Under the pieces are notes generated by a model. The model saw nothing but the letters and a program-made list of their open reading frames with translations, was not told the origin of the DNA and did not search any database. A stretch of 38,155 nucleotides of DNA from a virus. Position numbers and translations under genes: made by a program. The stretch is from positions 1 through 38,155 of IMG/VR virus record IMGVR_UViG_3300036770_006043. One strand, 5' to 3'. Shown here piece by piece: positions 14,751 to 35,966 of the stretch. How positions within the stretch are numbered: the first letter of the stretch is position 1; each line of letters opens with the position of its first letter.

Positions 14751-15023
14751 ATGGGACGAAGTATTCATACAGGAACAGCAGGTAGTGGCGGTGGAATTGG
14801 ATCGCTGAATGTTATCGCTAATAAGATAACCAGCGTGGTAGAAAATGATGACATCGAATTCGAACCTAACGGTACTGGTAAAGTAGAGATGGTTAGGAAC
14901 ACTTCGGCTACCAGCACCAGCACAGGTGCTTTAGTCGTAGTAGGAGGTGTCGGCATAGGCGAAAATCTTTGGGTAGGTGGTAATATCGAAGGTGCAGGTA
15001 CTATTAACGGCGGAACATTCTAA
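14751..15023 (+). CDS. short virion protein with fibre-like repeat
   Basis: 90 residues. An N-terminal Gly/Ser-rich segment precedes 'IEFEPNGTGKVEMVRNT' and 'GALVVVGGVGIGENLWVGGN'. This alternation of (F/E)PNGTGxV with GGxGIGxNLxVGG is the repeat found in long fibre proteins of cyanophages, so it is probably a stand-alone fibre segment or connector. A GGAG lies 7 bases before the ATG. The stop overlaps the start of the next gene as TAATG (15021-15025), which implies translational coupling to the first glycine-rich fibre. Confidence 0.75.
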   Translation: MGRSIHTGTAGSGGGIGSLNVIANKITSVVENDDIEFEPNGTGKVEMVRNTSATSTSTGALVVVGGVGIGENLWVGGNIEGAGTINGGTF

Positions 15024-18452: not shown

Positions 18453-18455
18453 TGA
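17499..18455 (+). CDS. tail fibre with Mtd-like N-terminus and glycine-rich tip (copy 3 of 3)
   Basis: 318 residues. The N-terminus (MPIFKFRNST, then GEIAINVANQRMFEG) is a diverged Mtd-like attachment domain. The stem carries 'NNSASAAPTAASAFYRVNEL' and the tip starts at 'KNVFTFTSSGTYTKSG' and ends CIIYEYK. The glycine-rich part keeps the framework of copies 1 and 2 but has different His/Asn-rich loops, for example 'GHNNMDQYSSSCAPGG'. It starts 6 bases after the previous stop. It is inferred to be a receptor-binding fibre; whether all three copies are on one particle or act as alternatives cannot be told from sequence. Confidence 0.82.
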   Translation: MPIFKFRNSTSSGAQPANGDLEDGEIAINVANQRMFEGTASSTTVKITDTLAVQRPNSVNISGGTASVTDLNTSTLAAVNTNSLVLGGTTISAAAADPSNNSASAAPTAASAFYRVNELRGKLKNVFTFTSSGTYTKSGSDVNRIHVIVMGGGGGGRAYSECGGAGGYAEKIIDATSVTTVTVTIGGPGTGGVYFGFSPGGGTTSFGSFVSASGGDGANSHIQHNGGRGGLGSNGDLNARGGGGGGHNNMDQYSSSCAPGGEGGIGFFGGGTPGAHTSGAQPADVAAWGAGGVAVSPSHNGQGGRNGRGGICIIYEYK

Positions 18456-18864: not shown

Positions 18865-19461
18865 TTACCAGACTCCGAAGTTCACTACGATCCTTGAACC
18901 CGTAGTTGGCCTAGTACTAGCGTGATATCGAGAGCCGTCAAATACGACGGCTCTTCCTTTTTTAGGAGTCACTCGCTGAAATATCTTTAGTTCTTCTACG
19001 GTTACTTCCGAAGGCGAGATGTCTCTAAATGTCTTGTCATAGAAAACCGTGTCCCCATCTGAATCGCAGACATAATACAAGACATTTAGGTGCGATACTT
19101 CTCTATCAACATGAGGATGATCGACCCTATCGAGATGGGTGGGTAATGGTATCGTAAGAAAACTTCTAACAGCAATAATTTCTGTTATTCTAAATTTAAC
19201 TTTATCACAGGCAAAATATACGATCGGTAAGATTAAACCATAAGCTGGACTTATAACACCTTTTTCTCTATCATAAAATTTATGAGCAAACGCTGGCTTT
19301 GATTCAGAGACATTGATTTCTTTGATCTTATCTACATCATAGGTTATGTCTTGCATATAATGCCAATTAACATTCTCAGCCACCAACTGTTGTTGTATTA
19401 GATCCTGATATTGCTCTGGAAGAAAATCATCTAAAACCACTATATCATCTATTATAAGCAT
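18865..19461 (-). CDS. 2OG/Fe(II) oxygenase superfamily protein (HxD type)
   Basis: 198 residues. Prolyl-hydroxylase-like double-stranded beta-helix with iron ligands H117-x-D119 ('HPHVDR') and H180 ('SRYHAS'), and R190 placed to bind the 2OG carboxylate ('GSRIVVNFG'). Expected chemistry is Fe(II)- and 2OG-dependent hydroxylation; the substrate is unknown. The strand order 'LNVLYYVCDSDGDTVFYD' resembles the 183-residue product at 29999-30550, so these two are probably paralogues. It is the last gene of the minus-strand cassette, overlaps the preceding gene by 10 bases and ends exactly against the plus-strand stop. Its codons contain the opposite strand's terminator. Confidence 0.85.
   Translation of the reverse strand: MLIIDDIVVLDDFLPEQYQDLIQQQLVAENVNWHYMQDITYDVDKIKEINVSESKPAFAHKFYDREKGVISPAYGLILPIVYFACDKVKFRITEIIAVRSFLTIPLPTHLDRVDHPHVDREVSHLNVLYYVCDSDGDTVFYDKTFRDISPSEVTVEELKIFQRVTPKKGRAVVFDGSRYHASTRPTTGSRIVVNFGVW
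18931..18963 (+). terminator. intrinsic terminator of the fibre operon, embedded in the convergent gene
   Basis: Perfect 9-bp stem AGAGCCGTC (18931-18939) / GACGGCTCT (18946-18954), loop AAATAC, followed by TCCTTTTTT (18955-18963). It lies 67 bases beyond the stop of the plus-strand operon. The U-tract is on the plus transcript only; the minus transcript has no T run after the stem. The same bases encode residues R-A-V-V-F-D-G-S of the last oxygenase, just before its distal iron-binding His. Confidence 0.8.
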
Positions 19462-20033
19462 ATGATATTAAATCCTATTAAAATCCTAACATTATTTCCG
19501 TGATATGGTTCTGCATCGTGCATCAGCATACTAGGAAAAAGTATTAATCTTCCGGGAACGAATCTAGAAGAAAATCTATCATCTGCGAAATCAAGCCCCG
19601 GTTTTCTTTCCATAACGTAAGGCAAATACCAATTGTTGCCCTGTTCGTCTATGTCGCTATATATATAAAAAATTCCAGACCATGTAGATCCGGAATGATA
19701 GTGAGGTCTGTGATAACCCCCCGGTCTGGTTACATGTGCCCAGCTTTCTGTTATAGCCACTTTATAACTATTGTTATTATTGATTTTATTGATCATAGAT
19801 TCCGATTCTTCGATCAGCCACAGTTTTAAATCCATTAATTCTTGTTTAGAGTCTAAAAAATCAAAATCTGATTCCCATAATTTATTTTTAGCACGGATAG
19901 AAACATTAGATTCTATTGTATTTGGTTTTTCCAACCCCATACAAATTTCTATGATTCGATCTCTGCGATGGTCAAAATCGGACCAATCACTGATCAACAA
20001 TGGAATTTTGCCTAACGAGATTTCTTGCTGCAT
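19452..20033 (-). CDS. putative 2OG/Fe(II) oxygenase, HxH type (TIGR02466/PF13759-like)
   Basis: 193 residues. Predicted ligands H111-x-H113 ('RPHYHSGSTWSGIFYI') and H172 ('LFPSMLMHDAEP'), with R183 ahead of 'ILIGFNI'. The H-x-H...SG(V/I)(F/Y)Y plus G(R/K)LILFPS..xH plus R..I.FN pattern is that of the 2OG-FeII_Oxy_5 family, in which His stands where classical enzymes have Asp. Activity and substrate are unknown. The start codon overlaps the stop of the preceding gene by one base (TAATG), so translation is probably coupled. Confidence 0.82.
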   Translation of the reverse strand: MQQEISLGKIPLLISDWSDFDHRRDRIIEICMGLEKPNTIESNVSIRAKNKLWESDFDFLDSKQELMDLKLWLIEESESMINKINNNNSYKVAITESWAHVTRPGGYHRPHYHSGSTWSGIFYIYSDIDEQGNNWYLPYVMERKPGLDFADDRFSSRFVPGRLILFPSMLMHDAEPYHGNNVRILIGFNIICL

Positions 20034-20611
20034 TATCTAAAAATATCCACAGATACAGTCACAGTCATTACCAGCCTATCTTCTTGGCTGTTGTTTTTTT
20101 CTGTCATATGATGTAAAAAGCCAGGAAAAAATAAAACATCGTTTTGATTTACCTCAACAGTTTTCCAATTATTTCTATCGATTTTAGGGAAACCAGAAAA
20201 TGTATATTGTAACGGATCTTTAAACATAATATTGCCACCGTCAGCTGGCTGTTTGATATAGATGACTATAGTTTGGTGGCATTGGCCGTGATCATGTTCG
20301 TCTGTGTAAGCACCCGGCGGATGCAAATTAACCCAGCTCCTATGTATGAATCGAGGTATATCGTCAGCAAAATTCCATCTCTGCCATACTTCTGCTGCAA
20401 CTGTGGTTAACCAGTGTCTTAAATTATCGCAAGACTGATCGAAAATCAAATCGTTGGCCGTATTAAATGTTGTTCTGCCATCGTTCTTTTCTAGTCCGTG
20501 TATAGATTCGTCATTTAATTTTGTTCGACAAAAGGCTTCTACAGCACTTAAATCTAATGGACAATGTGTTTTATAAATTAAATCAGGCCAAAGTCTTATC
20601 GGTTCAATCAT
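20033..20611 (-). CDS. putative 2OG/Fe(II) oxygenase, HxH type
   Basis: 192 residues. The core motif 'HPPGAYTDEHDHGQCHQTIV' gives H106-x-H108; the distal ligand is H167 or H168 ('FFPGFLHHMTEKN') and R179 is the candidate 2OG contact. The short N-terminal part with 'LWPDLIYKTHCPLD' fits the usual phage oxygenase form that begins with a (F/W)P..I/V. segment. It sits directly downstream of the DUF-like gene with an ATGA overlap at 20608-20611. The product is probably cytosolic. No substrate can be predicted. Confidence 0.82.
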   Translation of the reverse strand: MIEPIRLWPDLIYKTHCPLDLSAVEAFCRTKLNDESIHGLEKNDGRTTFNTANDLIFDQSCDNLRHWLTTVAAEVWQRWNFADDIPRFIHRSWVNLHPPGAYTDEHDHGQCHQTIVIYIKQPADGGNIMFKDPLQYTFSGFPKIDRNNWKTVEVNQNDVLFFPGFLHHMTEKNNSQEDRLVMTVTVSVDIFR

Positions 20612-21366
20612 GATTCGATGTCTAGATCTGTCTTGGTTAATTTAAATTTATTTTTTGCAGAAATATAACCTCTCCAATTATACCTAGAAAGGCCATTTAA
20701 TCCTAGGATATTCATGAATCTATTTTCATCTTGACCATTATATTTTCTACTAACAGCATCGATAGATTCTCTTCGAAAAGGAATAATTCTCACCAACGGT
20801 TCGCCCATTTTAATCAAGGTATGTTTTTTTTCAAAAAAAGCTAAATTTATAGGTGTATCGTTAAGAGTCATATCGGTATCCAATATACCTGGTAAGGCCT
20901 GATAATTTTTATTGGTATAATATATTGGTAACCAAAAACAACTGTATCCGTCTATGGTTTTGATATGCCAAGGATTGTTGATCTTGATCACTAGTCTCAC
21001 ATCAAAATGATCACCTAATATTTTTTGATATTGATTTTCTGTGTGTACATCATGACTGTAATCTTGATTGCTGTATCTAATTAATACATTGTCGCCTTCG
21101 AAGTCAATCTCAATATCGCACCATGCGGATATCACATATCCGTATTTTAAAAATGAATTTATCGAAGGACATTGTCTAGCAGTCAGTTGGTAAGATAAAT
21201 TCCTGCGTTCGAAAGGACAGATTTTTCCTACAGGCAAATCCATGTATTCTTCGGGCAGTTTGTTTTCTCCTAGTTCAACTGGTGAGTATTTTCTTATGGC
21301 CCAATCTTTACAGCTGAAAGTTATAATTTCTTTTTCTTTGAAAAAACTTTTGATAAATTTGATCAT
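20608..21366 (-). CDS. unknown protein paired with halogenase (DUF6065-like, copy A)
   Basis: 252 residues, no signal peptide. Conserved-looking blocks are 'TARQCPSINSFLKYGYVISA' (63-82), 'NNPWHIKTIDGYSCFWLPIY' (130-149) and 'MGEPLVRIIPFRRE' (187-200). It has the same order of blocks as the 236-residue product at 26573-27283: QCP followed by YVI, a middle strand region, and G-(E/Q)-P-L. The layout resembles bacterial and phage proteins grouped as DUF6065, but that name is from memory and unchecked. Both copies lie directly beside a halogenase gene, this one joined by ATGA (21363-21366), so they may act with the halogenase. Confidence 0.7.
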   Translation of the reverse strand: MIKFIKSFFKEKEIITFSCKDWAIRKYSPVELGENKLPEEYMDLPVGKICPFERRNLSYQLTARQCPSINSFLKYGYVISAWCDIEIDFEGDNVLIRYSNQDYSHDVHTENQYQKILGDHFDVRLVIKINNPWHIKTIDGYSCFWLPIYYTNKNYQALPGILDTDMTLNDTPINLAFFEKKHTLIKMGEPLVRIIPFRRESIDAVSRKYNGQDENRFMNILGLNGLSRYNWRGYISAKNKFKLTKTDLDIES

Positions 21367-22952
21367 TTTTCGTATTTTGTTTTTAGATACTGATATAAAG
21401 TGGGAAGAGTTTCTACAAATTTTCTACGAGTTTCTAGCATCACATCCCAATAAGGGAAACAGTTATTTTTAAGATTTTCGATGTAATCGAGAGATCTATT
21501 TCTGTAGAGAATTCTGTGTATCAAAGATTCGTCTAATGGAAGAAAATTTAATCCGGTCGCTACACAGAGCGTACCTCCCATGTCTTCGGTGTACCTATGC
21601 TCGACATATTTCTGGCGTATCAGATGGTCGATACCAAACGATGCATATACACCTAATTGCATGTTTTTAGGCCAATTTTTATTTCTACATGCCCTCCAAT
21701 ACTCGGTATCATCACGATGGCTCATTGCATAATGTAGAGCCACAAATTCTGCAAAAGCTCTAAAGTCTCCTCTACAACCTTCATTGAATGCGAGTCTGTC
21801 AAATTCTGTAATTTCATCACGATTCAATGCTGAAACTAACTTTAATAGAAATTCATGTACAGTGTATAATCCTGAAGATTCTAAAGGTTCGATAAACCCA
21901 GCCGATAATCCGATAGCGCATACATTTTTGTGGTATATTTTTTGATGTATACCAATCCGCATTTTAATATTTTTAAATTCTAAAGAATCTATCATCTCTT
22001 TTGATTTTTTGATAGATCTGTGATTAATTAAATAGTCCTTGAATTGTTCTAATGCATCTTCGTCGCTGATGAATCTGTCACTGTAAACATATCCTGTACC
22101 TACTCTCGACCAAAGAGGAATATTCCATACCCAGCCATTTTGTATGGCCGTACAATTAGTGTAGGGTTCGAGCTCTTGTTCTTTGTCCGTAAAGGGAACT
22201 CTGGTAGCCCAGGCCGAATTGTTAGGAAGAAGATCTTCATAACTATCAAAAGGTACATTCAAAGTTTTTCCTAGTAACATAGACTTAAACCCGGTACAGT
22301 CGATATATAGATCTGCAGAAATTTCTTCACCCGATGTTAATTTAAGTACTTCGATACCGTTTTCGTTGGTTACAATTTCGATTACGTCGTCTTTGATCAG
22401 TTTAACTCCGCGAGGAATAGAAAAATTGTCTCTTAACCAAGCACCAAATTTGGCCGCGTCAAAATGGTAAGCCACATCTCTATTGAAATCCCATTCAGGA
22501 AATTCGTTGTTAGAATTATCACAGATCTTATTATTATCTGACATCGTTACTGCAGGAAAAAAAGTTTCTGCAAAGTTTTGTACGGGAAGATTATTATCTA
22601 ATGCTTTTCTTATAAACCAATCCTGCAGACCGCTAGGAAAATGTAAACGATTATAGATAGGTACTCCAAAAGGATAATGAAAGGCTCCCGCTCCTTTTTT
22701 ATAAAAATCTGTGAATTTTATGCTTAATTTATAACTAGCATCACATTGTGTCATCCAATCTTCATCTTTTATGCCCAGAGAAAATAACCATTCATTGATC
22801 TGACCTATAGTACTTTCGCCTACTCCTACCGTTGGAACGTTGGGGCTTTCGATGACAACAACTGCTTTATTTGGAAAGTTTTTGATCAGTGTAGCAGCAC
22901 TCATCCATCCAGCGCTACCTCCGCCAACTATGACTATTTTATCTATCCGCAT
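21363..22952 (-). CDS. flavin-dependent tryptophan-halogenase family protein 1
   Basis: 529 residues, the usual length. FAD-binding GGGSAGW (10-16) and 'GVGESTI' (43-49) lie at the N-terminus. K75 ('ASYKLSIKF') aligns with the catalytic Lys of PyrH (K75) and RebH/PrnA (K79). The diagnostic W-x-W-x-I-P motif is intact (WVWNIP, 274-279). E355 in 'AGFIEPLESSG' matches the second catalytic residue, with the halide-site Ser/Gly next to it. The family uses FADH2, O2 and halide to make HOX, carried by the Lys to an aromatic substrate. The closest known phage precedent is VirX1 of cyanophage Syn10, a broad iodinating enzyme. AGGA lies 8 bases before the ATG. A 36-base gap separates it from the preceding gene, the only gap in the cassette. 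Confidence 0.92.
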   Translation of the reverse strand: MRIDKIVIVGGGSAGWMSAATLIKNFPNKAVVVIESPNVPTVGVGESTIGQINEWLFSLGIKDEDWMTQCDASYKLSIKFTDFYKKGAGAFHYPFGVPIYNRLHFPSGLQDWFIRKALDNNLPVQNFAETFFPAVTMSDNNKICDNSNNEFPEWDFNRDVAYHFDAAKFGAWLRDNFSIPRGVKLIKDDVIEIVTNENGIEVLKLTSGEEISADLYIDCTGFKSMLLGKTLNVPFDSYEDLLPNNSAWATRVPFTDKEQELEPYTNCTAIQNGWVWNIPLWSRVGTGYVYSDRFISDEDALEQFKDYLINHRSIKKSKEMIDSLEFKNIKMRIGIHQKIYHKNVCAIGLSAGFIEPLESSGLYTVHEFLLKLVSALNRDEITEFDRLAFNEGCRGDFRAFAEFVALHYAMSHRDDTEYWRACRNKNWPKNMQLGVYASFGIDHLIRQKYVEHRYTEDMGGTLCVATGLNFLPLDESLIHRILYRNRSLDYIENLKNNCFPYWDVMLETRRKFVETLPTLYQYLKTKYEK

Positions 22953-22988
22953 TTAGTTTCCTTTGACAATTTAACTTAATTATCAGAT

Positions 22989-23639
22989 CTAATCTGCCAC
23001 GAATAGATTTCCTGAAATAGAAACTCTATTCTCATTGCTGGTAAAAAAAGGATAAACTAAATGTTTGATTGTCGAAGGAAAAAATAAAACAGTGCCTTCA
23101 CAAGTTTTGTCTGGAAAAAATGGCAGAGATTGGACATCTCCTAGAATATTAGTAAACACAAAATTAAAGCTAGTGGCCAAAGGATAATCAGCAGGTGTAA
23201 CATGCGGCATCGTCAATTCTTCTTCTAAAGAGTAGGGTATATCTATCCACGAAACAAAACTAAACACACCGCTATGGTTATGCAGAGGATTAAATTCGTA
23301 TTTTTTCTGGAAATTAATCCAAACTTTTTCTAGCATAAAGGACAGCGGCTTCTTGATCAAATAATTTTGAGATATCTCCTTATCAAAATTCCATGCCCTT
23401 ATGTATTGAGCAGCCATTTCTAACAAATAAGGTTGGATTATTTGTTGAGATGTTTCGAGATAAACCTGTGTTTCAAGATGACCTGCTAAATTTTTGTAGA
23501 TTTTTTCTTTTTTATCGACATTTTTTTTTATTTCTTGTATTTCTTTTTTAAGAACAGATGTTATCTCATCTGGAAATTTCGATATTGAGTAACCATAATT
23601 AGGAAAATGTTTTTGTTCTACAGAAAAATCATCAAACAT
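22989..23639 (-). CDS. putative 2OG/Fe(II) oxygenase, HxH type
   Basis: 216 residues from the ATG at 23639, chosen over an in-frame TTG at 23651 because no ribosome site favours the latter; the ATG overlaps the upstream halogenase stop by 8 bases. Motif 'NPLHNHSGVFSFVSWIDIP' gives H120-x-H122, the distal ligand is H193 ('LFFPSTIKHLVYP') and R205 ('NRVSISGN') is the 2OG contact. The insert between the strands is longer than in its neighbours, a form common in cyanophage genomes. The N-terminal 25-60 region is Lys/Glu-rich and helical. Substrate unknown; it lies between two halogenase genes. Confidence 0.82.
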   Translation of the reverse strand: MFDDFSVEQKHFPNYGYSISKFPDEITSVLKKEIQEIKKNVDKKEKIYKNLAGHLETQVYLETSQQIIQPYLLEMAAQYIRAWNFDKEISQNYLIKKPLSFMLEKVWINFQKKYEFNPLHNHSGVFSFVSWIDIPYSLEEELTMPHVTPADYPLATSFNFVFTNILGDVQSLPFFPDKTCEGTVLFFPSTIKHLVYPFFTSNENRVSISGNLFVAD

Positions 23640-25122
23640 TGTCGAATTCAATTTTGTGCATATGGGATCTGTTCATAATTATTTCTAATGCTTGTCTATG
23701 AGAAACAAACTGTTGATTATTTTCCCACTCTTTAAATTTAGTCAGCGCATCTACGGCTGCGAATTTTATATCTTCGTTCTGGCTATCATAAAAATCTTTT
23801 AACTTTTGCCTATCTAACATCTGTAGACCGTGCATAACCATCAACCAATTTTGATCTCTAAACATGAGAAAAGATCCGTTAAAGAAAACATGGCTAGGCA
23901 ATGAATTTTTAAATATATCTAACGTTTCCCTGTTAAAATCGGTTTTCGTTAATTCGCTGCAACTTCTCCAGAACTCTGTGTCTTGTCTTTTGGTAAAATA
24001 GTGTAGTTGGACAAAGTCGATGATATTTTTACAAACATTTTCAAATTCGATATTATATTGATTAGGAGTAGCAGTATCTCCAGGCTCCCATAAAACCAAA
24101 TGATTAGCCAACGCTAACGATTGCTGGATAGATGTGCCGATACTGCTGGCTTCTAACGGTTCAACAAAACTGCCAGCTAATCCTAGCGCCACGCAATTTT
24201 TAATCCAAAACTTATCAACATAGCCCGCAGAAAATTTTATTTTCTTTGCAATTTCGATTGGCTTTTCAAACACAGTCTGCGCTTCGGCGATGGCCTGCTC
24301 TTCTGTTATAAAATCATCATTGTAAACATATCCGTTACCGAATCTTCCTTGGGTAGGAATCCGCCACATCCAGCCGGCGCTCATAGCAGTACTAGCTGTG
24401 TTAGATGGAATATCTTCTAACCTTTCGGTCGGAAACGCAATCGCTGCGTTCATGGGCAAATATTTTCTACAGTCCAGCCATTTGGCTCCTAATTTAGAAG
24501 ATATTACTCTCCTAAATCCGCTACAATCGATGAAAAAATCTGCAAAATATTTTTGCCCATCGGCGTCTACAAGATGCGAAACAAATCCTTGTTCATTTAT
24601 ACCGACTTCTTCGATTGTAGCATCGACGATTTCTATAGATCTAGACGAGCACAACTTCAATAGATATTCATTAAGCTTAAAAGTATTAAAATGAAACTGA
24701 TTTACTGATGTTTCAAAATTTTCAGCGTGGGTAGAATCGTGTATGTTCTTCGGCACCAAGTTATGATGATCTAATCCGTCGATGATCATTTTAGTGTAGA
24801 TAAACGGAAATCCGGTAGGAGCCTGATGTGTAAAAGAAGAATGCAATGAATGAAAGTAATAATCATCGTCACCGTTCCAATTCACAAATTTAATACCTGT
24901 TTTAAAAGTAGCATCGGTTTCTTTTATTAATTCATTGATCGAAATTCCGCATGCTTTCATAAAGGTAGTCCAGTGTTCTGTAGAACCTTCGCCTACACCG
25001 ATTATTCCGATTTCTTTAGATTTTATGATTTGGATTTCTAATTGACTAAATTTAGATTTAAGTATGAGCGCAGAGATTAATCCGCTGGTGCCACCGCCTA
25101 ATATGATTAATTTTTTGATCAT
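23632..25122 (-). CDS. flavin-dependent tryptophan-halogenase family protein 2
   Basis: 496 residues from the ATG at 25122. A longer start at 25152 is possible, but 25122 has GGAG 6 bases upstream and makes an ATGA overlap with the preceding gene. Key features: GGGTSG (9-14), 'GVGEGSTEHW' (42-51), catalytic-type K74 ('ATFKTGIKF'), intact W-x-W-x-I-P (WMWRIP, 251-256) and E321 in 'AGSFVEPLEASS'. All elements of a working family member are present. 'KFVNW' after the Lys is closer to many bacterial tryptophan halogenases than copy 1. Identity with copies 1 and 3 is low, so the three are old paralogues or separate acquisitions with different substrates. Confidence 0.9.
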   Translation of the reverse strand: MIKKLIILGGGTSGLISALILKSKFSQLEIQIIKSKEIGIIGVGEGSTEHWTTFMKACGISINELIKETDATFKTGIKFVNWNGDDDYYFHSLHSSFTHQAPTGFPFIYTKMIIDGLDHHNLVPKNIHDSTHAENFETSVNQFHFNTFKLNEYLLKLCSSRSIEIVDATIEEVGINEQGFVSHLVDADGQKYFADFFIDCSGFRRVISSKLGAKWLDCRKYLPMNAAIAFPTERLEDIPSNTASTAMSAGWMWRIPTQGRFGNGYVYNDDFITEEQAIAEAQTVFEKPIEIAKKIKFSAGYVDKFWIKNCVALGLAGSFVEPLEASSIGTSIQQSLALANHLVLWEPGDTATPNQYNIEFENVCKNIIDFVQLHYFTKRQDTEFWRSCSELTKTDFNRETLDIFKNSLPSHVFFNGSFLMFRDQNWLMVMHGLQMLDRQKLKDFYDSQNEDIKFAAVDALTKFKEWENNQQFVSHRQALEIIMNRSHMHKIEFDNV

Positions 25123-26591
25123 TGCATTCTCCACTCGTCGAAAGTTAGACATTCTCTAGATATCAAAAAAGCTTCATTTAATAGTTGTTGATATTCTTCT
25201 TGTATAGTTTCCAACATATATTTTCTTTTGTGTTTTAATTTTGTTTCGAAAATTTTAAAGTCAAATACTTGGTTTCCTTGGAAAACTGCGGCATAATTTT
25301 CAAAAGAATAAACCGGAAAATCTTCAAAATTTACGCAGCCGGTTGCCCACTGATCTATTTTATTTTTTAAACTTTCGGGAATTTTTCGGATTTTTTGATC
25401 TTTCCAAAATTCTGAATCGTCCCTAGCAGTCATATAATGTAGATTTATAAAATCTATTACATCCGTTATCATTAATTGGTATTTATGATTATAGCTAACT
25501 TCATCATGACTGTTTAATTGACTGCCAGGATTCCAGTGTTCTGATAATAATCTCAATTGGAGACCTATCAGAGTATGACCGGGACTCCCTAACGGTTCTG
25601 GGAATCCTGTGCTCAATCCGATGCCAATGACGTTTTTAGTCCACGGATTCAGAGATAACGACGGATCCCAAGTGAGTGAAGCAATAGGAGTTATATCCTT
25701 ATTAAAAGTTTTATTGATTTCATCAACAGCTTGGTCTTTTGTGATACGAGAATTGTCATAAACATATCCTCTACCAGATCTAGATTGTAAACTCACATCA
25801 AAAGACCAACCGTTTTTTAATGCTGTCATTTCTGTGTAAGGTAGATTGCTGCTTTCATCCCACCATGCAACGACTGATGTGGCTGGAAATTCTTGACGAT
25901 AATCTTTAAAAACTTGTCCTAATGCTTTTTTAAGCAGCAATTGAGAAAAGCCGGAACAGTCAAAAAACCAATCAGCATTTAACACCGTGTGGTCTTCGAG
26001 TACCAACGAATCTATAGAACCATCATTGTCTAAATTTGTGTATAAGAATTTTTTTTCAACAAGGTTGATCTGTCTTTCAATACCTAGTCTTTTAAGATAA
26101 TTGGCATTTTTTCTGGAGTCAAAATGCCACATCGAATTTAAAATATAGGTACCATTTTTTGTATAAGGTACCTTTTTATCTAAAATCAATCTTGTTGAAA
26201 CAGATAAATCACTTACAGGTAAATTTAAAGCTAGAAGACCTAATAAAAAATCATTTTGATTTCCGAATTCAGGATATTTGTACAGATATCTATTCAGATA
26301 CCTCGAAAACAGAGGTTGTATAAAAAAATCACCGTTGCCAGACCAATTGACGAATTTTCCTCCTAGTTTTGGAATCCCATCTACTTCTTTTCGCCATGCT
26401 TCGATGGGTATATCTAAAAATTCTAGCAACTCCACAAAAGGAATGGTGCAACTCTCACCAGCAATGATCGGTAATGCATTCGGATCTTCTATTACAGTGA
26501 TCTCGATGTTTTCCCACGTTTTTTTCAAGAAAAGCGCTGTTAGCCAACCGGCGGATCCTCCACCGAGAACGATTATTTTTTTGTGAACCAT
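25119..26591 (-). CDS. flavin-dependent tryptophan-halogenase family protein 3, divergent motif
   Basis: 490 residues. GGGSAGW (10-16) and AGESCTI (44-50) bind FAD, K75 ('IPKLGGKFVNW') fits the catalytic Lys, and E332 in 'TGFPEPLGSPGH' fits the catalytic Glu. The W-x-W-x-I-P signature is replaced by WSFDVS (262-267): only the first Trp is kept, while the following 'SRSGRGYVYD' is normal. In the family this motif is thought to block monooxygenation, so this copy may have altered chemistry or may lack halogenase activity. The EPLG in place of EPLE is also unusual. It overlaps the upstream gene by 19 bases and the downstream gene by ATGA. Confidence 0.87.
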   Translation of the reverse strand: MVHKKIIVLGGGSAGWLTALFLKKTWENIEITVIEDPNALPIIAGESCTIPFVELLEFLDIPIEAWRKEVDGIPKLGGKFVNWSGNGDFFIQPLFSRYLNRYLYKYPEFGNQNDFLLGLLALNLPVSDLSVSTRLILDKKVPYTKNGTYILNSMWHFDSRKNANYLKRLGIERQINLVEKKFLYTNLDNDGSIDSLVLEDHTVLNADWFFDCSGFSQLLLKKALGQVFKDYRQEFPATSVVAWWDESSNLPYTEMTALKNGWSFDVSLQSRSGRGYVYDNSRITKDQAVDEINKTFNKDITPIASLTWDPSLSLNPWTKNVIGIGLSTGFPEPLGSPGHTLIGLQLRLLSEHWNPGSQLNSHDEVSYNHKYQLMITDVIDFINLHYMTARDDSEFWKDQKIRKIPESLKNKIDQWATGCVNFEDFPVYSFENYAAVFQGNQVFDFKIFETKLKHKRKYMLETIQEEYQQLLNEAFLISRECLTFDEWRMQ

Positions 26592-27283
26592 GTTTTAGGT
26601 CTCAATCTATTGAAAGAATTGTGTATTTTCCAACTAATTTTAGGCAAAAAATGTTTCAAGGTAAGGCTGCTGTTTACAGCGTGTTCTAGTTTTTCTGTCC
26701 TTTCAATTTTTTCAAGCTTTATTTTATCTTTAAACCTTGGAGTTCTAAATTTCACATAAGCCAACGGCTGTCCTCGTGATAGGCGTATCTCATCTGTTAA
26801 CATTTCAAAAGTTGTAACAAATGGACGATACCAATTGCCTATGTTATAACTTCCCGGAATAAGTCTCCATGCGGGATCTATATCATTAAATGGGGGTAAA
26901 CTTTCTATTAAGACATCCTCATCGGATACAAAAACAAAGCTATTGCTCAATGCTACAATGGGTCTACCTGCGTCCGGATCAAAATCTCCCCAATGTAATC
27001 TTACAAAAGAATTATGGGCTTCGAAAGGTAAATCGCTGTGCAATACCTTGTTTGTTTTATCCCATCGAAGCGTAATATCTATAGTATTTTTGATGACGTA
27101 AAATTGATTTACATAGTTTGTAAAAGCAGGGCATTGATGATATTTAGAAACAGAATCGTCCCAGGTCGATAATTTTTCAAGTTCGAAGTGTGCTAGATCA
27201 ACCCAACCATAATAATTTAACGCAGTATTAATAGTGTTGGGATTTTTTTCATTCCACGGGCAATAACCTACTTTAATTTCCAT
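26573..27283 (-). CDS. unknown protein paired with halogenase (DUF6065-like, copy B)
   Basis: 236 residues. 'QCPAFTNYVNQFYVIKNTID' (50-69), 'RPIVALSNSFVFVSDEDVLI' (107-126), 'GSYNIGNWYRPFVTTFEM' (144-161) and 'SRGQPLAYVKFRTP' (169-182) appear in the same order as the matching blocks of the 252-residue product at 20608-21366, which suggests paralogy at low identity. The C-terminal 45 residues are basic (about residues 185-236). It lies immediately before the third halogenase and overlaps it by 19 bases. No catalytic signature is visible. It may be a partner, substrate-binding or scaffolding protein; this is inference. Confidence 0.7.
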   Translation of the reverse strand: MEIKVGYCPWNEKNPNTINTALNYYGWVDLAHFELEKLSTWDDSVSKYHQCPAFTNYVNQFYVIKNTIDITLRWDKTNKVLHSDLPFEAHNSFVRLHWGDFDPDAGRPIVALSNSFVFVSDEDVLIESLPPFNDIDPAWRLIPGSYNIGNWYRPFVTTFEMLTDEIRLSRGQPLAYVKFRTPRFKDKIKLEKIERTEKLEHAVNSSLTLKHFLPKISWKIHNSFNRLRPKTWFTKK

Positions 27284-27488
27284 AATATGAAGACCAAAAT
27301 CCCATCGGACACGTCCCCGATTTCATTTTAGCTCTAGCAGTATAGGGTTCATTGATAATTTTACAAAAATTTGTTTCAGAATCGCAGGCATAACATTCTT
27401 TGCAGATCGATATTCTTTCTTCATATTTGTGATAAGGCACTAATATGACCTTTTCGTTATGATGCATTAACCTTGGTTTAGTTTTCAT
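27273..27488 (-). CDS. small cysteine-rich (zinc-ribbon-like) protein
   Basis: 71 residues with Cys at 29, 32, 35, 42 and 60 ('ICKECYACDSETNFCKI' and 'GTCPMGFW'). C-x2-C-x2-C-x6-C followed by a late C-P-x-G-x-W is the pattern of small phage zinc-ribbon-like proteins, so four of the five Cys probably bind Zn(II). The C-terminus is aromatic (FWSSYYGN). It is basic overall and overlaps both neighbours by 11 bases, so it is a genuine cassette member. It could be a partner of the oxygenases, or, more speculatively, a peptide that is modified at its Trp/Tyr tail. Confidence 0.75.
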   Translation of the reverse strand: MKTKPRLMHHNEKVILVPYHKYEERISICKECYACDSETNFCKIINEPYTARAKMKSGTCPMGFWSSYYGN

Positions 27489-28203
27489 TGCGAATATTCC
27501 GTTTAAGATCTTCTATAATAAATTGTAAATTTAATATCTTGTTATTTAAGTGCTCTATATCGCTTATACAATTGTCATCAACATACGGATACTCTGAATT
27601 TGAAGAAAGGTATTTTCCCGAGTATCCTATGTTGAATGAAATCACGATCCTATCATCATTTGATAAATTCTCACCTGTTTTGTGTCTAATGTAACCAGGA
27701 AAAAGAACCAAATCTCCTGTACGTACTTTTATCCCCGTCTCTATTTTTCTTTCGATATCGGTCGAAAATGGAATATTAGTTATACTATACTCTGCGGGAT
27801 TGGTTAATATTAAATCTCCGGAATCGTATTCTGCTTTTAAATAAAATGCAGCCACCATCGGCATAAGGCTGTGCGAATGTTGTAATGTGAAAGACCTCGA
27901 TCTATGAATATTAGACCAGCATTGATCTATTCTAGGACTTAATCTTTCGTCGACATCTAGCACACGCCAATACATGCTGGAATGAAACAGCACTAAGTCC
28001 GATAACTGTCGCATGATTGGTAGCTCGTGCAACTGATTGTCAGTTTCATAGGTGCTTACTCCGCCATGTTTTTCTAACGAGGATAAACTTTCTACAGCAT
28101 AATTCAATTTATGCCTGATTGTTTTTTCTATCTCATCGATCTCGACTAGAGATTCTAATAAGTTAATCTTATATATTGGCGTAGAAAATAAATTATGAAT
28201 CAT
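27478..28203 (-). CDS. putative 2OG/Fe(II) oxygenase, HxH type, with C-terminal coiled coil
   Basis: 241 residues. N-terminal 'NLFSTPIYKINL', then H109-x-H111 ('TLQHSHSLMPMVAAFYL'), the distal H174 ('LFPGYIRHKTGEN') and R185 ('DDRIVISFNIG'). The substrate-facing loop includes 'LTNPAEYSITNIPF', typical of the family. Residues 208-241 form a charged heptad-like tail (ISDIEHLNNKILNLQFIIED), a probable coiled coil not present in the other oxygenases, which might mediate oligomerisation or docking onto another protein. Overlaps of 11 bases with both neighbours. Confidence 0.82.
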   Translation of the reverse strand: MIHNLFSTPIYKINLLESLVEIDEIEKTIRHKLNYAVESLSSLEKHGGVSTYETDNQLHELPIMRQLSDLVLFHSSMYWRVLDVDERLSPRIDQCWSNIHRSRSFTLQHSHSLMPMVAAFYLKAEYDSGDLILTNPAEYSITNIPFSTDIERKIETGIKVRTGDLVLFPGYIRHKTGENLSNDDRIVISFNIGYSGKYLSSNSEYPYVDDNCISDIEHLNNKILNLQFIIEDLKRNIRNEN

Positions 28204-28798
28204 TAGCTATTGGTTGATTTTTTAAATACCATTTTTTGCTTACAAAAGTCTTGTAAGAAATATATTTTCTCAATTTTTTACAATCTCTAGTCGGCCCCAA
28301 TCCTCTATGCGGAATGTTGCTGTCAAAAACCAAGCAGGTGTTAGGCAATGGATAATAGGTAGCAACTACATTACCATTGTCATCAAAAAATTGGAATTCG
28401 CCTCCCCATTCTGGATTCCATTCTCTGTTCGGAAAAAAACAAAAAGTCATAAAACCGTCACCCATATCATTAAACTCTACTTCTTTGTCAGTGTGTATTC
28501 CGCCATCTAGGCCGAATGTTTTTCCGCCGGCGATAGCATGATACATCTTAAATTGATAATCAGAAGTTTCCGGAGCTGTTTGATATAGTTTATTTTGGAT
28601 TTCAAAAAATGCAACTTCACTTATTAAATGATCGAGACTGAAATCGGCTTGCCAAAAAACTGTACTATCTTCATCCCAGACATCGGGATTGGTTACTCTA
28701 CCAAATTGCCACACGGGTTTATCGAGCTCTGCACAGACATTGTTCCATGTATCATCTCGCAAGACATTTGTTAGATAAAATATTTCTTTGTTTCTCAT
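28193..28798 (-). CDS. 2OG/Fe(II) oxygenase superfamily protein (HxD type)
   Basis: 201 residues. H102-x-D104 ('GGIHTDKEVEF'), distal H164 ('NIPHRGLGP') and R177 (or R171) as 2OG contact ('LRKYISYKTF'). The segment 'TFCFFPNREWNPEWGGEFQF' is the Y(L/F)N..W....GG...(F/L) strand of prolyl-hydroxylase-like oxygenases, and 'NTCLVFDSNIPHRG' is the matching second half. The facial triad is complete, so activity on an unknown substrate is plausible. GGAG lies 5 bases before the ATG, and a TATAAATA octamer ends 22 bases before the ATG, so this gene may head an internal late transcript. Confidence 0.87.
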   Translation of the reverse strand: MRNKEIFYLTNVLRDDTWNNVCAELDKPVWQFGRVTNPDVWDEDSTVFWQADFSLDHLISEVAFFEIQNKLYQTAPETSDYQFKMYHAIAGGKTFGLDGGIHTDKEVEFNDMGDGFMTFCFFPNREWNPEWGGEFQFFDDNGNVVATYYPLPNTCLVFDSNIPHRGLGPTRDCKKLRKYISYKTFVSKKWYLKNQPIANDS

Positions 28799-29430
28799 TT
28801 TGACTCCAAATCAGGTTTACTATTTATAGGGCCTGTTAGCCCCTGCCTAAATAAATCATCTGACCATCCCGGGTGATTCCACGCTTCTGCTTCTTGATCG
28901 GTCAACAACAATTCTCGTTCATCGAACTTTAGATGATCGAAATCGCCATTTTTTCGAACGTAGTGAAAAAATATTTGATGCTGAAAACTCTGCCCGTCCA
29001 TAGGGTGTCTTAAATGGCTTATTTTGCTGCCTTCGTAAATTAATGCATCACCGATATCTATTGTAAATTCGATAAATCCAGTTTCGTTCTGAAGAAATAT
29101 CGGCCAGATAAATTTTTCATAATCCAAAGTAATGGTCAAGCTTATTTCGGCACCGGGTCTATCAAAATGAGGCAGCAAATAATCATTTTCTTGATAAATC
29201 CGTCCGTAGGTGTATACAGGATGTAATTCGCAGCCTACAATTTCTTCCACACGACTTCTAATCGATTCCATCTCGTCGTTGAAAATTCCATACCATGCAG
29301 GGCTTAATTTACATTGTCCATCGGGGGATCTGTAAATATTTCTCTGGAGTAGATCCTCCATTTTTCTAGCCATCTGGAAACATTGTTCTTTCGGGATAAG
29401 TGATTTTTCTAAATGATATAATGAAAACAT
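28795..29430 (-). CDS. 2OG/Fe(II) oxygenase superfamily protein (HxD type)
   Basis: 211 residues. H88-x-D90 ('LLPHFDRPGAEISLTITLDY') and distal H139 ('GDALIYEGSKISHLRHP') complete the iron site. The following 'SFQHQIFFHYV' matches phage and cyanobacterial oxygenases of the 'GD(A/L)(L/I)(I/V)Y.G..(L/I)xH' type. The C-terminal 50 residues (after 'DHLKFDERELLL') extend beyond the core and have no recognised motif; the extreme end is partly constrained by the overlapping late octamer. Its start overlaps the preceding stop by one base and its stop overlaps the next start as ATGA. Substrate unknown. Confidence 0.86.
   Translation of the reverse strand: MFSLYHLEKSLIPKEQCFQMARKMEDLLQRNIYRSPDGQCKLSPAWYGIFNDEMESIRSRVEEIVGCELHPVYTYGRIYQENDYLLPHFDRPGAEISLTITLDYEKFIWPIFLQNETGFIEFTIDIGDALIYEGSKISHLRHPMDGQSFQHQIFFHYVRKNGDFDHLKFDERELLLTDQEAEAWNHPGWSDDLFRQGLTGPINSKPDLESK
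28821..28828 (-). promoter_or_regulatory. internal T4-type late promoter octamer
   Basis: TATTTATA on the plus strand reads TATAAATA on the minus strand, the exact T4 late consensus. It sits inside the 3' end of the 28795-29430 gene, 22 bases before the start codon at 28798. That spacing is close to the 24 bases between the cassette's first promoter and its first gene, and a GGAG site follows. It would let the distal part of the cassette be expressed on its own. Not tested. Confidence 0.55.
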
Positions 29431-30002
29431 TATTCTATTGTTATATTAAAAGATATCGATACTCGGTTCGAATCGCTATTGTTAATACTAACAGCGTGTT
29501 CTAAAAAACTAGGAAACAAAATTAATTTTCCCACTTCTGGCACATAAGAAATCTTGGAAAACTCGGCAGATGTAATCTTATGAAATCTATTAACTGGCGA
29601 AGGATTTAAAAAAACTAAATCTCCATCTTTGCTGTTGGTCTTATGAAAATAGACTCCCGAAATATCATAACCGTCGTGCATATGGTAATTTTGAAATCCA
29701 CCTTTAACAGAGTAATTAATCCAAGATTCTGCTATGTTTATATTTAAATAATTAACTGCGAGCTGTTCTAAAAAATCTCTAGAATAATCTAGAATTTTAC
29801 TTTTCAGAATAGGAATTTGATCTAGTGTGTGGTCATAGGGGCCGTATTTAAAATTAGTCAATACTGTATCCCCCCAAGGATTTATCAGTGTTTCCTTATC
29901 CAAAGTTGACTCGTATTTTTCTATTTCGTTAGAAACTACAGCAACGTCTTCATCATTTAAGACTTTAAAATAGATTGGTGTTGGAAAGAAATACTCTATC
30001 AT
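29430..30002 (-). CDS. putative 2OG/Fe(II) oxygenase, HxH type (TIGR02466/PF13759-like)
   Basis: 190 residues and the cleanest example of the family here: 'FPTPIYFKVL' at the N-terminus, H107-x-H109 ('NYHMHDGYDISGVYF'), G-D-L-V-F-L-N-P, then 'GKLILFPSFLEHAVSINN' with H169 and 'NRVSISFNI' with R180. His replaces the classical Asp ligand. The family is common in marine bacteria and phages; no substrate is established to my knowledge. Its start codon overlaps the preceding gene as ATGA, and the next gene's ATG overlaps its stop by one base. Confidence 0.85.
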   Translation of the reverse strand: MIEYFFPTPIYFKVLNDEDVAVVSNEIEKYESTLDKETLINPWGDTVLTNFKYGPYDHTLDQIPILKSKILDYSRDFLEQLAVNYLNINIAESWINYSVKGGFQNYHMHDGYDISGVYFHKTNSKDGDLVFLNPSPVNRFHKITSAEFSKISYVPEVGKLILFPSFLEHAVSINNSDSNRVSISFNITIE

Positions 30003-30550
30003 AGTTTATAGTCTGTCGAAGCAACCGCATTGATAACTAGTCGTCTTTCGTTTATGATAGGAGAAGAACTAGAATGTAACTGATTCGAAGGAAATATAAC
30101 ACATCTATTTTTTTTAGGAACGATTTTGTCTATAATTTGGTAGTTTTCATCAAAAAAGTAAGTAGGGCCATCGCTGTCGTTGATATAATAAATCATAGAA
30201 ATCATGTTGTCTGCCGTATCGTCTTTATGCGGTGGATGAGGAACAGCACCATTAGAATTGTACTTTAACAATTGATTTATTTTTACTCTTCGATAATTTA
30301 ATATGCCTCTAGAATGTTCTGTTAGTATTGAATCGACAGCTTTGATTATTAAAGGAGTATAGGAAGAATCAGCACGACCGTTGTCTATTATCGGGTGAAC
30401 GAACTGAAATGTCTCTAAAAATTTATCTGTATCATAGGTTATATGTCCTGCGGTATAAGGATCATACCACCAATATGTATATGGATCCAAAAAGATCTGC
30501 TCGATTTCGTCGGCTAGATAAGAATTAATACAATTATCTATGATCTTCAT
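29999..30550 (-). CDS. 2OG/Fe(II) oxygenase superfamily protein (HxD type)
   Basis: 183 residues. H108-x-D110 ('PHPPHKDDTADNM'), distal H159 ('FPSNQLHSSSSP') and R169/R170 ('ERRLVINAV'). The central 'SMIYYINDSDGPTYFFD' is a prolyl-4-hydroxylase-like major sheet, and 'YFFDENYQIIDKIVPKKNRC' resembles the corresponding region of the cassette's last gene (18865-19461), suggesting that the first half and the end of the cassette carry paralogues. Both neighbouring junctions are ATGA overlaps. Substrate unknown. Confidence 0.86.
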   Translation of the reverse strand: MKIIDNCINSYLADEIEQIFLDPYTYWWYDPYTAGHITYDTDKFLETFQFVHPIIDNGRADSSYTPLIIKAVDSILTEHSRGILNYRRVKINQLLKYNSNGAVPHPPHKDDTADNMISMIYYINDSDGPTYFFDENYQIIDKIVPKKNRCVIFPSNQLHSSSSPIINERRLVINAVASTDYKL

Positions 30551-31152
30551 TTGAGGGCCAAATTAAACGGAATGCTTATCTTGTTTTTGTCTTGTTCGTG
30601 TTTATCATACCCATGATAAACGCTAGATTTAAACATTATGATTCTTCCCGGAGTACAATCATATTTGACTAATTTATAATTTAGATCATTATCCATGATC
30701 GGTTTTACAGTTTCAAACGAATCCCTGTACGGTGATCCAAAATTCAGTGTTGCGTTAGGCGGCGATTCGACATAGAACACTCCACTCAAATAAGCACGAC
30801 CCATGCTGTTGTGTACATGTAAGGCATGATAATCATGCTTTTCTATCAAGTTGATCCACATATTTACTGGTTCTATCTGATTCTCGGTAATCCCTGGAAA
30901 ACCTAAAGCATTAAGAAACCCTACAGCTTGGTAGATTATTTCTTTCGTTAATAATTTGAATGTATCTAATTTATAAATGTGTCCGTATAAAGAATGCCAA
31001 AAAGTCGTTTTAAGAGAACTTTCTCCAAAGGGGTGTGATTCTCGGCCGATTTCTTCTAAAATTTTCAGACATTGACCTTTGTAATCTTCTAATTTTTCTA
31101 ACTGATTATTATCAGTATACCAAACAGATGTAGGAAACCAATTATCTATCAT
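30547..31152 (-). CDS. putative 2OG/Fe(II) oxygenase, HxH type, Arg replaced by Lys
   Basis: 201 residues from the ATG at 31152. A start at 31176 would add eight residues but ignores the GAGG 5 bases before 31152 and the ATGA overlap with the preceding stop. Motifs: 'NWFPTSVWYT', H112-x-H114 ('LHVHNSMGRAYLSGVFYV'), distal H180 ('MFKSSVYHGYDKH') and, where the family normally has Arg, K191 ('KNKISIPFNL'). A Lys can bind the 2OG carboxylate in some members, so loss of function should not be assumed. Substrate unknown. Confidence 0.82.
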   Translation of the reverse strand: MIDNWFPTSVWYTDNNQLEKLEDYKGQCLKILEEIGRESHPFGESSLKTTFWHSLYGHIYKLDTFKLLTKEIIYQAVGFLNALGFPGITENQIEPVNMWINLIEKHDYHALHVHNSMGRAYLSGVFYVESPPNATLNFGSPYRDSFETVKPIMDNDLNYKLVKYDCTPGRIIMFKSSVYHGYDKHEQDKNKISIPFNLALK

Positions 31153-31733
31153 TTGAACCTCGGCCCGTTGACCCAAGTAACTAGGCTTTTTCTAAATCCG
31201 GATGAGACCTTTGTTACTTCGTGTATAACAAAACTAGGAAAAACTATTACCGTGCCTATTTCTTTTGGAGCAGCAGCGCATTCAGAAAGTGTATTTCTGT
31301 AAAACAGTAGATCGCCACCTTCATATTCCTTAGGATCTGATAGTTGTACCGACACGCTTAATTTACGAAACAAATTAAATTTATAACCGTCGTCAGTGTG
31401 ACTGGTATAAAAATCTAAAGTTTCGCCTTTGTATTCTGTGTACTGTAATGACTCCATTTCTGTAAGATCATATTTGTAAAATCTATCATTTAGAGAGTTA
31501 ATTATGTCGGCCAGTTTTACAAAAATGTCTTTAGATTCAGCATCGGCATCAATCCATGAAATGTTGCAATTCCTAACAGCGGAGTTAGAAACACCTCCTT
31601 CTAATTCTGCCTTGCCTCCGTAACGATTTTTTCCTAATTGTATGATTTTATCGATCTCGTCAAGACTGAAACAGTTTGTAGCATATGCAAACGGTTCGTT
31701 GGTATAATTAAAATCTTTCATTAACCAAGACAT
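31149..31733 (-). CDS. 2OG/Fe(II) oxygenase, PKHD/PiuC-like (HxD type)
   Basis: 194 residues. H112-x-D114 ('SHTDDGYKFN'), 'LSVSVQLSDPKEYEGGDL', distal H171 ('VFPSFVIHEVTKVSSGFRKS') and R181 form a full prolyl-hydroxylase-like active site with the typical end 'LVTWVNGPRF'. It is the member closest to characterised bacterial and phage 2OG oxygenases of the PKHD group, some of which hydroxylate peptides. The ATG at 31733 is preceded by GGAG at a spacing of 8, which favours it over an in-frame ATG at 31721. It overlaps the first cassette gene by 13 bases. Confidence 0.88.
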   Translation of the reverse strand: MSWLMKDFNYTNEPFAYATNCFSLDEIDKIIQLGKNRYGGKAELEGGVSNSAVRNCNISWIDADAESKDIFVKLADIINSLNDRFYKYDLTEMESLQYTEYKGETLDFYTSHTDDGYKFNLFRKLSVSVQLSDPKEYEGGDLLFYRNTLSECAAAPKEIGTVIVFPSFVIHEVTKVSSGFRKSLVTWVNGPRFK

Positions 31734-32290
31734 TTAGCTATCTCCGTGTCGAAACTTATAACATATTTGATATCTGCATGATTTTCACTGTAATGTTCTA
31801 CCCAACTAGGAAAGATTATCAGCATATTTTCTTCTATTGGAATCTCAAATTCTTGCATGTTAAAAGTTGTTGTTCTCGAGCAGACTTCGTTTATCTTGAA
31901 AGGATTGCAGGGATTTTTAATTTTTAAAAAACTGTTGGTCCCTTTGATTAACGGATAGTACACACCGCTTACTATACTCATTTCGTGTTTGTGAGGTAAT
32001 ATATATCCTTTGTTTACATATTTGTTACACCAGCTGTAAGAAATTTTCGCAGGTGTTACTCCGTAGTAATCAACAAAGCAATCTATTTCTTTTTGAAAAA
32101 TTTCTTTCAGCCATAATTTCCTGTCTAAAAAGGTGTTAGTTTTAGATCGATGTCCATTTTTAATAAGATTGTTGTTTTCTAGCTTTTCTTGATCTATCGA
32201 GTGCGTAATATCTGCTAGATCTCGAGTTGTCACTGATTCTAGTTTAATTTTTTTAATAAGAACAGGAAATATCTCTAATAGTTCATTCAT
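31721..32290 (-). CDS. putative 2OG/Fe(II) oxygenase, HxH type; first gene of the cassette
   Basis: 189 residues. N-terminal 'IFPVLIKKIKLE', H100-x-H102 ('LPHKHEMSIVSGVYYPL'), 'FLKIKNPCNPF', distal H166 ('IFPSWVEHYSENH') and K175 where Arg is usual ('DIKYVISFD'). It is therefore a TIGR02466/PF13759-like protein with a substituted 2OG-binding position. No good ribosome binding site is visible before the ATG; the leader from the late promoter would be about 18 bases. Position makes it the first gene translated from the divergent late promoter. Confidence 0.83.
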   Translation of the reverse strand: MNELLEIFPVLIKKIKLESVTTRDLADITHSIDQEKLENNNLIKNGHRSKTNTFLDRKLWLKEIFQKEIDCFVDYYGVTPAKISYSWCNKYVNKGYILPHKHEMSIVSGVYYPLIKGTNSFLKIKNPCNPFKINEVCSRTTTFNMQEFEIPIEENMLIIFPSWVEHYSENHADIKYVISFDTEIAKCLG

Positions 32291-32384
32291 CGGGAAATGT
32301 TCAAAATCTATAAATATTTATATACAGCGTATATCGCTCGAAAAAAAGTGATAAGATTTTCCAAAATTTTAAGATAAATACCAA
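32291..32384. other. divergent intergenic region
   Basis: 94 AT-rich bases between the leftward oxygenase cassette and the rightward fibre block. Besides the palindromic octamer it holds a weak inverted repeat AGCG-TATAT-CGCT (about 32326-32338) followed by seven A residues, which may be a weak hairpin or nothing. No small open reading frame or RNA gene is evident. Confidence 0.6.
32309..32322. promoter_or_regulatory. palindromic bidirectional late promoter
   Basis: TATAAATATTTATA is a perfect 14-base palindrome: TATAAATA on the plus strand (32309-32316) and on the minus strand (32322-32315). Each half is the exact T4 late consensus. It lies in the only divergent intergenic region: 24 bases from the minus-strand cassette start and 68 bases from the plus-strand fibre start. 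Both transcripts would depend on the phage late sigma factor and sliding clamp if the T4 system applies. Confidence 0.7.
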
Positions 32385-33890: not shown

Positions 33891-33898
33891 ATTAATAT

Positions 33899-35941: not shown

Positions 35942-35966
35942 GTAAATAATAGTTAAAGGACTCAAT

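Follow-up and report, generated by a model that had tools for sequence, protein, structure and literature searches.

The window analysed here, a 38,155-base virus record from IMG/VR, carries a dense cassette of oxygenase and halogenase genes opposed to the tail-fibre genes around it. Eighteen minus-strand genes fill positions 18865-32290 between two rightward fibre blocks, of which the left one ends at 18864 and the right one starts at 32385. They encode twelve 2-oxoglutarate (2OG)-Fe(II) oxygenases, three flavin halogenases, two related proteins (D6065a and D6065b) and a Cys protein of 71 amino acids. This composition and this placement had been given in a preliminary description of the sequence. 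Pfam cut-offs, PHROG matches, motifs and, for the twelfth oxygenase, an AlphaFold2 fold confirmed the composition, and all coordinates and strands proved correct. Because 16 of the 17 junctions within the array overlap and the remaining one is a gap of only 36 bp, the 18 genes were read as one operon. We regard it as marginally better than an even bet that the array is a single late operon for enzymes acting on protein side chains, with the adjacent receptor-binding tips that carry the glycine-rich domain PF21722 as proposed substrates. In broader terms, the most likely targets for hydroxylation and halogenation late in infection are the glycine-rich fibre tips, or another protein produced together with them.

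Arrays of this kind lie recurrently beside PF21722 fibre genes, in either orientation. In the window, three plus-strand genes for Gly-rich fibre-tip proteins, P863a (15023-15982, phrog_863), P863b (15984-17492) and P863c (17499-18455), are followed by the small conserved gene P1787 (18469-18864, plus strand, phrog_1787), which stands between the tips and the cassette. PF21722 is common to the fibre-tip genes of the window, of cyanophage Syn10 and of two other contigs. The linkage was measured in 14 complete genomes holding both halogenase and PF21722 genes, with the expectation obtained by rotating positions. As many as 14 of the 23 halogenase matches were found at most 5 kb from a PF21722 domain, while 1.6 were expected (p 2e-4), and in 10 of the 14 genomes the centres of a halogenase and a PF21722 gene were about 2.3 kb apart or less. 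The excess was weaker for the PF13759 oxygenases, with 25 of 89 matches within 10 kb of PF21722 against 11.0 expected (p 0.001). Among 64 dereplicated environmental halogenase loci, 31 were usable, and 26 of these had a Gly-rich open reading frame no more than two genes from the cassette (17.2 expected, p 2e-4). Hence the setting among receptor-binding genes, noted earlier for the window, holds statistically across other phages.

Loci were also collected around two anchor genes, and neither of these sets was dereplicated. When the anchor was phrog_7759, a small fibre-linked gene chosen because it adjoins a cassette, 69 of 80 loci contained at least two oxygenases and only 15 of 80 contained at least one halogenase; when it was P1787, a halogenase or oxygenase was present in 45 of 80. 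The oxygenase assignments in these loci rest on profiles built for this analysis. In 63 environmental arrays with a Gly-rich gene, 51 were co-directional with it and 12 were opposed. As these 12 are arranged like the array of the window, the inversion recurs and orientation is not constant. The adjacency thus persists through inversions, which argues against mere inheritance of an operon. Opposed arrays with six to eight oxygenases and no halogenase were also seen repeatedly beside a Gly-rich gene in short viral contigs (phrog_7759 loci such as L336, L338, L344 and L345).

The cassette is conserved in uncultured relatives. Three contigs from the IMG/VR scans (L016, L017 and L018) keep the order from the first gene, OXY11, to the last, OXY01, as in the window, with protein identities of 48-86%; they vary only in the presence of OXY07 or OXY08, and their cassettes end against P1787 and P863 genes exactly as that of the window does. 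A more divergent version of the cassette occupies the same place beside P1787/P863 in L007-L015. Scattered genes with no co-occurrence had been named beforehand as the outcome speaking against a single functional unit; instead, both groups of contigs keep the gene order, and the proposal of one unit stands. All cassette genes are under purifying selection: between L016 and L018, which differ by 2.6% in DNA, the nonsynonymous rate (dN) is well below the synonymous rate (dS) in every cassette gene. An assembly artefact was ruled out as the source of the layout, as both junctions recur on other contigs. The left one, where the cassette converges on the P1787/P863 fibre genes, was found on L007 and L016-L018. 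A counterpart of the right one, with a FIB32-type fibre gene pointing away from an OXY11-like gene, was found on L020, L025 and L064. The guanine plus cytosine (GC) content is 35% in the cassette versus 43% in the flanks. Recent horizontal acquisition was rejected as an explanation: seven further cassettes, from cyanophages and uncultured contigs, were checked, and every one is likewise GC-poor relative to its fibres. DNA similarity to phages, searched with half of the cassette, was patchy and covered at most 6%.

The same slot is occupied in cultured phages. Cultured cyanophages of several genera, namely Syn10, P-TIM40, S-RIM44, S-CREM1, Sf-FP1, P-RSM6, S-WAM1, S-SZBM1 and Sf-FR1, have fibre tips and then a P1787-like small gene, one or two halogenases and oxygenases, often with a D6065-like gene among them. 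In Sf-CH11 the array is flanked on each side by a PF21722 gene. The arrays of marine T4-like cyanophages (Syn9/Syn10, S-CREM1, P-TIM40, P-RSM6 and S-RIM44) resemble that of the window in their enzyme families, in their slot after Gly-rich tips and a small gene and, in several, in a D6065-like gene, but they hold one or two full-length halogenases where the window has three, and they are co-directional with the fibres where the window array is opposed. The enzymes and smaller arrays are therefore already known, and the window, with its array running against the fibres, has the largest version encountered in this analysis. Such an array is less unusual than first described, as smaller ones occur in S-CREM1, Syn10, P-RSM6 and others, and many more in uncultured contigs.

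Eleven of the oxygenase genes scored above the Pfam cut-offs for 2OG-Fe(II) oxygenases, seven in PF13759 and four in PF13640, and the metal motif is conserved across relatives in all twelve. In transcription order, on the minus strand, the PF13759 members are OXY11, the first gene of the operon (31721-32290; E 4e-11; H100-x-H102...H166), OXY09 (30547-31176, TTG start), OXY07 (29430-30002; E 1e-18; PDB matches 2rg4 and 3bvc), OXY05 (27478-28203), OXY04 (22989-23651, TTG start), OXY03 (20033-20611) and OXY02 (19452-20033). Exactly these seven carry H-x-H...H, which, judging from the motif, may form a three-histidine iron site. The PF13640 members are OXY10 (31149-31733; E 8e-12), which is like PKHD-type hydroxylases (PDB 3dkq, E 3e-6), OXY08 (29999-30550), OXY06 (28193-28798) and OXY01, the last gene (18865-19461). 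All four have HxD...H...R, and together with the twelfth oxygenase, FCH (28795-29430), they make up the five genes with H-x-D...H. FCH gave no Pfam match, and its PHROG match is phrog_2954, named 'ferrochelatase'. We placed it among the 2OG oxygenases because H88-x-D90...H139 is conserved in its relatives and because its AlphaFold2 model (predicted local distance difference test score, pLDDT, 71) matches folds of this class, including P. putida prolyl-4-hydroxylase and the chlorella-virus collagen prolyl hydroxylase (vCPH); the name 'ferrochelatase' was rejected on the same grounds. Likewise, 'DNA endonuclease V' (phrog_274) was rejected for 18865-19461, as the gene is a 2OG oxygenase by its PF13640 match and HxD...H...R motif. 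Both PHROG names also sit on genes within cyanophage arrays.

The three halogenases, all on the minus strand, far exceed the Trp_halogenase (PF04820) cut-off of 21 bits: HALa (21363-22952; E 2e-106) scored 357, HALb (23632-25152; E 2e-101) 340 and HALc (25119-26591; E 2e-79) 268 bits. The GxGxxG motif for flavin adenine dinucleotide and the catalytic columns (G10, G12, G15, K75 and E355 in HALa numbering) are invariant in 26 aligned sequences; the K75 and E355 columns, which we take to be the catalytic Lys and Glu of PrnA, are kept in HALc also. The WxWxIP motif is intact in HALa (WVWNIP) and HALb (WMWRIP) and degenerate in HALc (WSFDVS). The best PDB match of HALa, and its closest solved structure, is the flavin iodinase VirX1 of cyanophage Syn10 (6qgm, E 6e-108). 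HALa is 48% identical to its Sf-CH11 counterpart and 37% to that of Syn10, while HALb and HALc, at 23% and 27% identity to HALa, are far more divergent.

Expression of the array probably falls late in infection, as indicated by a promoter motif and by arrays that overlap operons of neck genes. A late-type motif TATAAATA, which we take to be the T4 late promoter consensus, lies at 32315-32322 on the minus strand, 25 nt upstream of OXY11, and overlaps a plus-strand copy at 32309-32316. The overlapping divergent pair TATAAATATTTATA (32309-32322, both strands) would serve the cassette on one side and the right fibre block on the other. Of the six ATAAATA sites in the window, across which such sites are rarer than chance, three fall within the 94 bp that separate OXY11 from the right fibre block. 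A motif of the late-promoter type named in the preliminary description is thus present upstream of the array. In L018, the cassette overlaps a run of genes for a gp14-like protein, the gp15 tail-sheath stabiliser and a NUDIX protein. A possible terminator of the left fibre transcript, with a 10-bp stem and a T-run, lies inside the 3' end of OXY01 (18930-18955, plus strand), in a scan that gave overall no more candidates than shuffled sequence.

On the proposed mechanism, the enzymes of the operon would be made late, at the same stage as the fibres. Up to twelve 2OG oxygenases would hydroxylate several positions of the polyglycine tip, hydroxylation being the usual reaction of this family, and the flavin halogenases would halogenate aromatic tip residues (Trp or Tyr). 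Such modifications would make the polyglycine sandwich stiffer, or change the aromatic loops in contact with the host receptor. The dUTPase-fold proteins, like the Cys protein, may act as accessory factors. Reduced flavin (FADH2) would be supplied by the host, because no recognisable flavin reductase is encoded in the cassette. Modification of the tip is plausible by comparison with gp38 of phage PP01, in which the tip is a polyglycine-II sandwich whose loops carry tyrosines that touch the receptor or on which receptor contact depends (PMC12892980).

Several observations weigh against fibre modification. No modified fibre residue is known, and accessory genes in general concentrate at fibre loci. 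VirX1 reportedly, in the 2019 work of Gkotsi, acts in vitro on diverse small substrates. The halogenases of S-B64, S-MbCM6 and P-SSM2 stand alone, and in the same cyanophages 64 of the 89 PF13759 matches have no PF21722 gene within 10 kb. Moreover, the synteny is partly inherited, and shared ancestry makes the loci non-independent. Finally, seven oxygenases have H-x-H...H instead of H-x-D/E...H, and their chemistry is unproven.

The strongest rival is that of mobile accessory genes which settled in a fibre hot spot and whose products have proteins, ribosomes or 2-oxoglutarate pools of the host as their targets, with no link to the fibre; we consider it unlikely, though worth serious attention. 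It agrees with the nature of fibre loci as recombination hot spots, with the further oxygenases scattered over the genomes and with the GC contrast between cassette and flanks. Roles in 2OG/nitrogen signalling or DNA repair (PMC3037559) and in reprogramming of host metabolism (PMC9602691) are proposed in the accessible parts of published work. However, cyanophage cassettes have an equally low GC content, so that a recent arrival is not indicated, and the adjacency of halogenase and PF21722 genes is far above random placement and survives inversion. We give a lower probability, and a rather small one, to a role in making or altering a halogenated or oxidised metabolite, e.g. an antibiotic, as proposed for cyanophage prnA. 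The fold of the array halogenases is that of tryptophan halogenases, and antibiotic protection of the host has been published (PMC2984593; PMC9964418). Nevertheless, Pfam and PHROG searches of the 18 genes revealed no scaffold synthase, carrier protein, transporter or precursor peptide; many arrays have no halogenase, as the phrog_7759 loci illustrate; and the number and type of oxygenases vary widely between phages while the adjacency to fibres stays.

Least probable of all, in our estimate, is that the targets are other virion proteins, such as the long fibre shaft, baseplate or neck proteins, and not the Gly-rich tip. The position of the L018 cassette within a gp14-gp15 operon would fit such targets, as would the divergence of the window cassette from the right fibre block and the location of several cyanophage arrays between fibre tips and gp13-gp15. 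Yet no gp13-gp15 gene neighbours the arrays of Syn10, P-TIM40, S-CREM1 and S-WAM1, and the Gly-rich tips are still there. Between virion modification and a small molecule, the two roles suggested in the preliminary description, the evidence favours virion modification, with the fibre tip as its putative target.

The halogenases and oxygenases of cyanophages have been read for about 15 years as metabolic or antibiotic genes, and no substrate has been found. The linkage described here points to a specific and testable protein substrate in phages already in culture. If modification of the tips is true, abundant marine phages rely on post-translational chemistry to recognise their receptors, the natural substrate of VirX1 can be found, and sequence alone does not suffice to predict host range. 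The proposed function, if proved, would be new. More tentatively, and at somewhat under even confidence, tailed viruses may mature Gly-rich receptor-binding tips with a multi-enzyme hydroxylase/halogenase array, so that fibre chemistry could not be predicted from the genome sequence alone. This would add a genome-encoded layer of host-range control, and to our knowledge no phage fibre with halogenated or multiply hydroxylated residues has been known before. Should modification of the tips prove wrong, an explanation would still be needed for the recurrence of a block made up of PF21722 tip, small gene and oxygenase array.

Outside these arrays, the nearest known systems share only part of the arrangement. 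In Pelagibacter phage HTVC008M, oxygenases and a 'ferrochelatase' gene are opposed to, and directly adjoin, a single PF21722 gene before the neck genes, but the oxygenases are only a handful and the halogenase lies elsewhere (63.8 kb). Many oxygenases per genome are found in cyanophages S-SCSM1 (24 genes) and S-CREM1 (10 genes); the accessible parts of the two publications interpret them as reprogramming host metabolism and do not discuss a fibre location (PMC9602691, PMC9964418). Mimivirus L230 and the chlorella-virus vCPH are viral 2OG hydroxylases with collagen or proteins resembling it as substrates, as far as the accessible parts of the sources describe (PMC5802723, PMC9546862); they differ in belonging to eukaryotic viruses, in targeting a collagen triple helix and not a polyglycine tip, and in lacking a halogenase partner. 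The literature searched, which included few subscription papers, draws no link between such arrays and fibre tips.

The remaining three cassette genes, all on the minus strand, were examined as well. D6065a (20608-21366) matched phrog_7084 (E 2e-33), and its divergent paralogue D6065b (26573-27283) matched phrog_17480 as well as phrog_7084; the shared profile and an alignment relate the two. The AlphaFold2 model of D6065a, built from 18 relatives, had a pLDDT of 74, and its top Foldseek matches were dUTPases (E 7e-5; TM score 0.33 by query and 0.64 by target), which suggests a dUTPase-like fold. Of the dUTPase motifs only a motif-3-like PGIxDTD stretch was seen, by eye, and it is absent from D6065b; D6065a was not assigned to the dUTPases. 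Against DUF6065 (PF19541), D6065a scored 18.9 bits, below the cut-off of 26.6, and the D6065 profile found no significant match among PDB sequences. CYS (27273-27488; 71 amino acids, 5 Cys; phrog_13558, weak DUF6171) is kept adjoining D6065b in L007, L014 and L016-L018.

A D6065a homologue also lies about 1-1.4 kb from a Gly-rich protein gene in two haloarchaeal tailed viruses, HF2 (L099; 9791-10675 and 11605-12642) and HRTV-11 (L100; 9815-10702 and 12103-13155), and the Gly-rich protein of HRTV-11 is annotated 'putative adhesin'. Neither genome gave a PF13759, PF13640 or PF04820 match. These pairs hint that the dUTPase-like protein is linked to Gly-rich adhesins beyond bacterial phages.

The fibre blocks have features of their own. 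A fibre protein of 2622 amino acids at 6520-14388 contains six CBM_5_12 carbohydrate-binding stretches. The right block (32385-37652, plus strand; Pfam and PHROG) comprises FIB32, a subtilase-domain protein (S8, 33899-35941) and P677, a baseplate/fibre connector (phrog_677). The subtilase-domain protein has 275 relatives among IMG/VR pattern matches, and the region around its gene varies; 29 of 80 such loci contain an oxygenase or a halogenase gene. The Pro content of Gly-rich tips (6.1% with arrays, 3.0% without) was not used as a substrate clue, as only 11 array-less tips were available and the tips of the window are Pro-poor. The relatives of the S8 protein are cyanophages, unlike the affinity of the terminase of L105, a relative of the window's virus, which has its closest counterparts in jumbo phages such as PA5oct (53%) and not in cyanophages. 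Relatives of this virus also encode an unusually long tail sheath of about 1,120-1,160 amino acids (phrog_10581), located at 7176-10532 in L105 and at 10019-13504 in L106.

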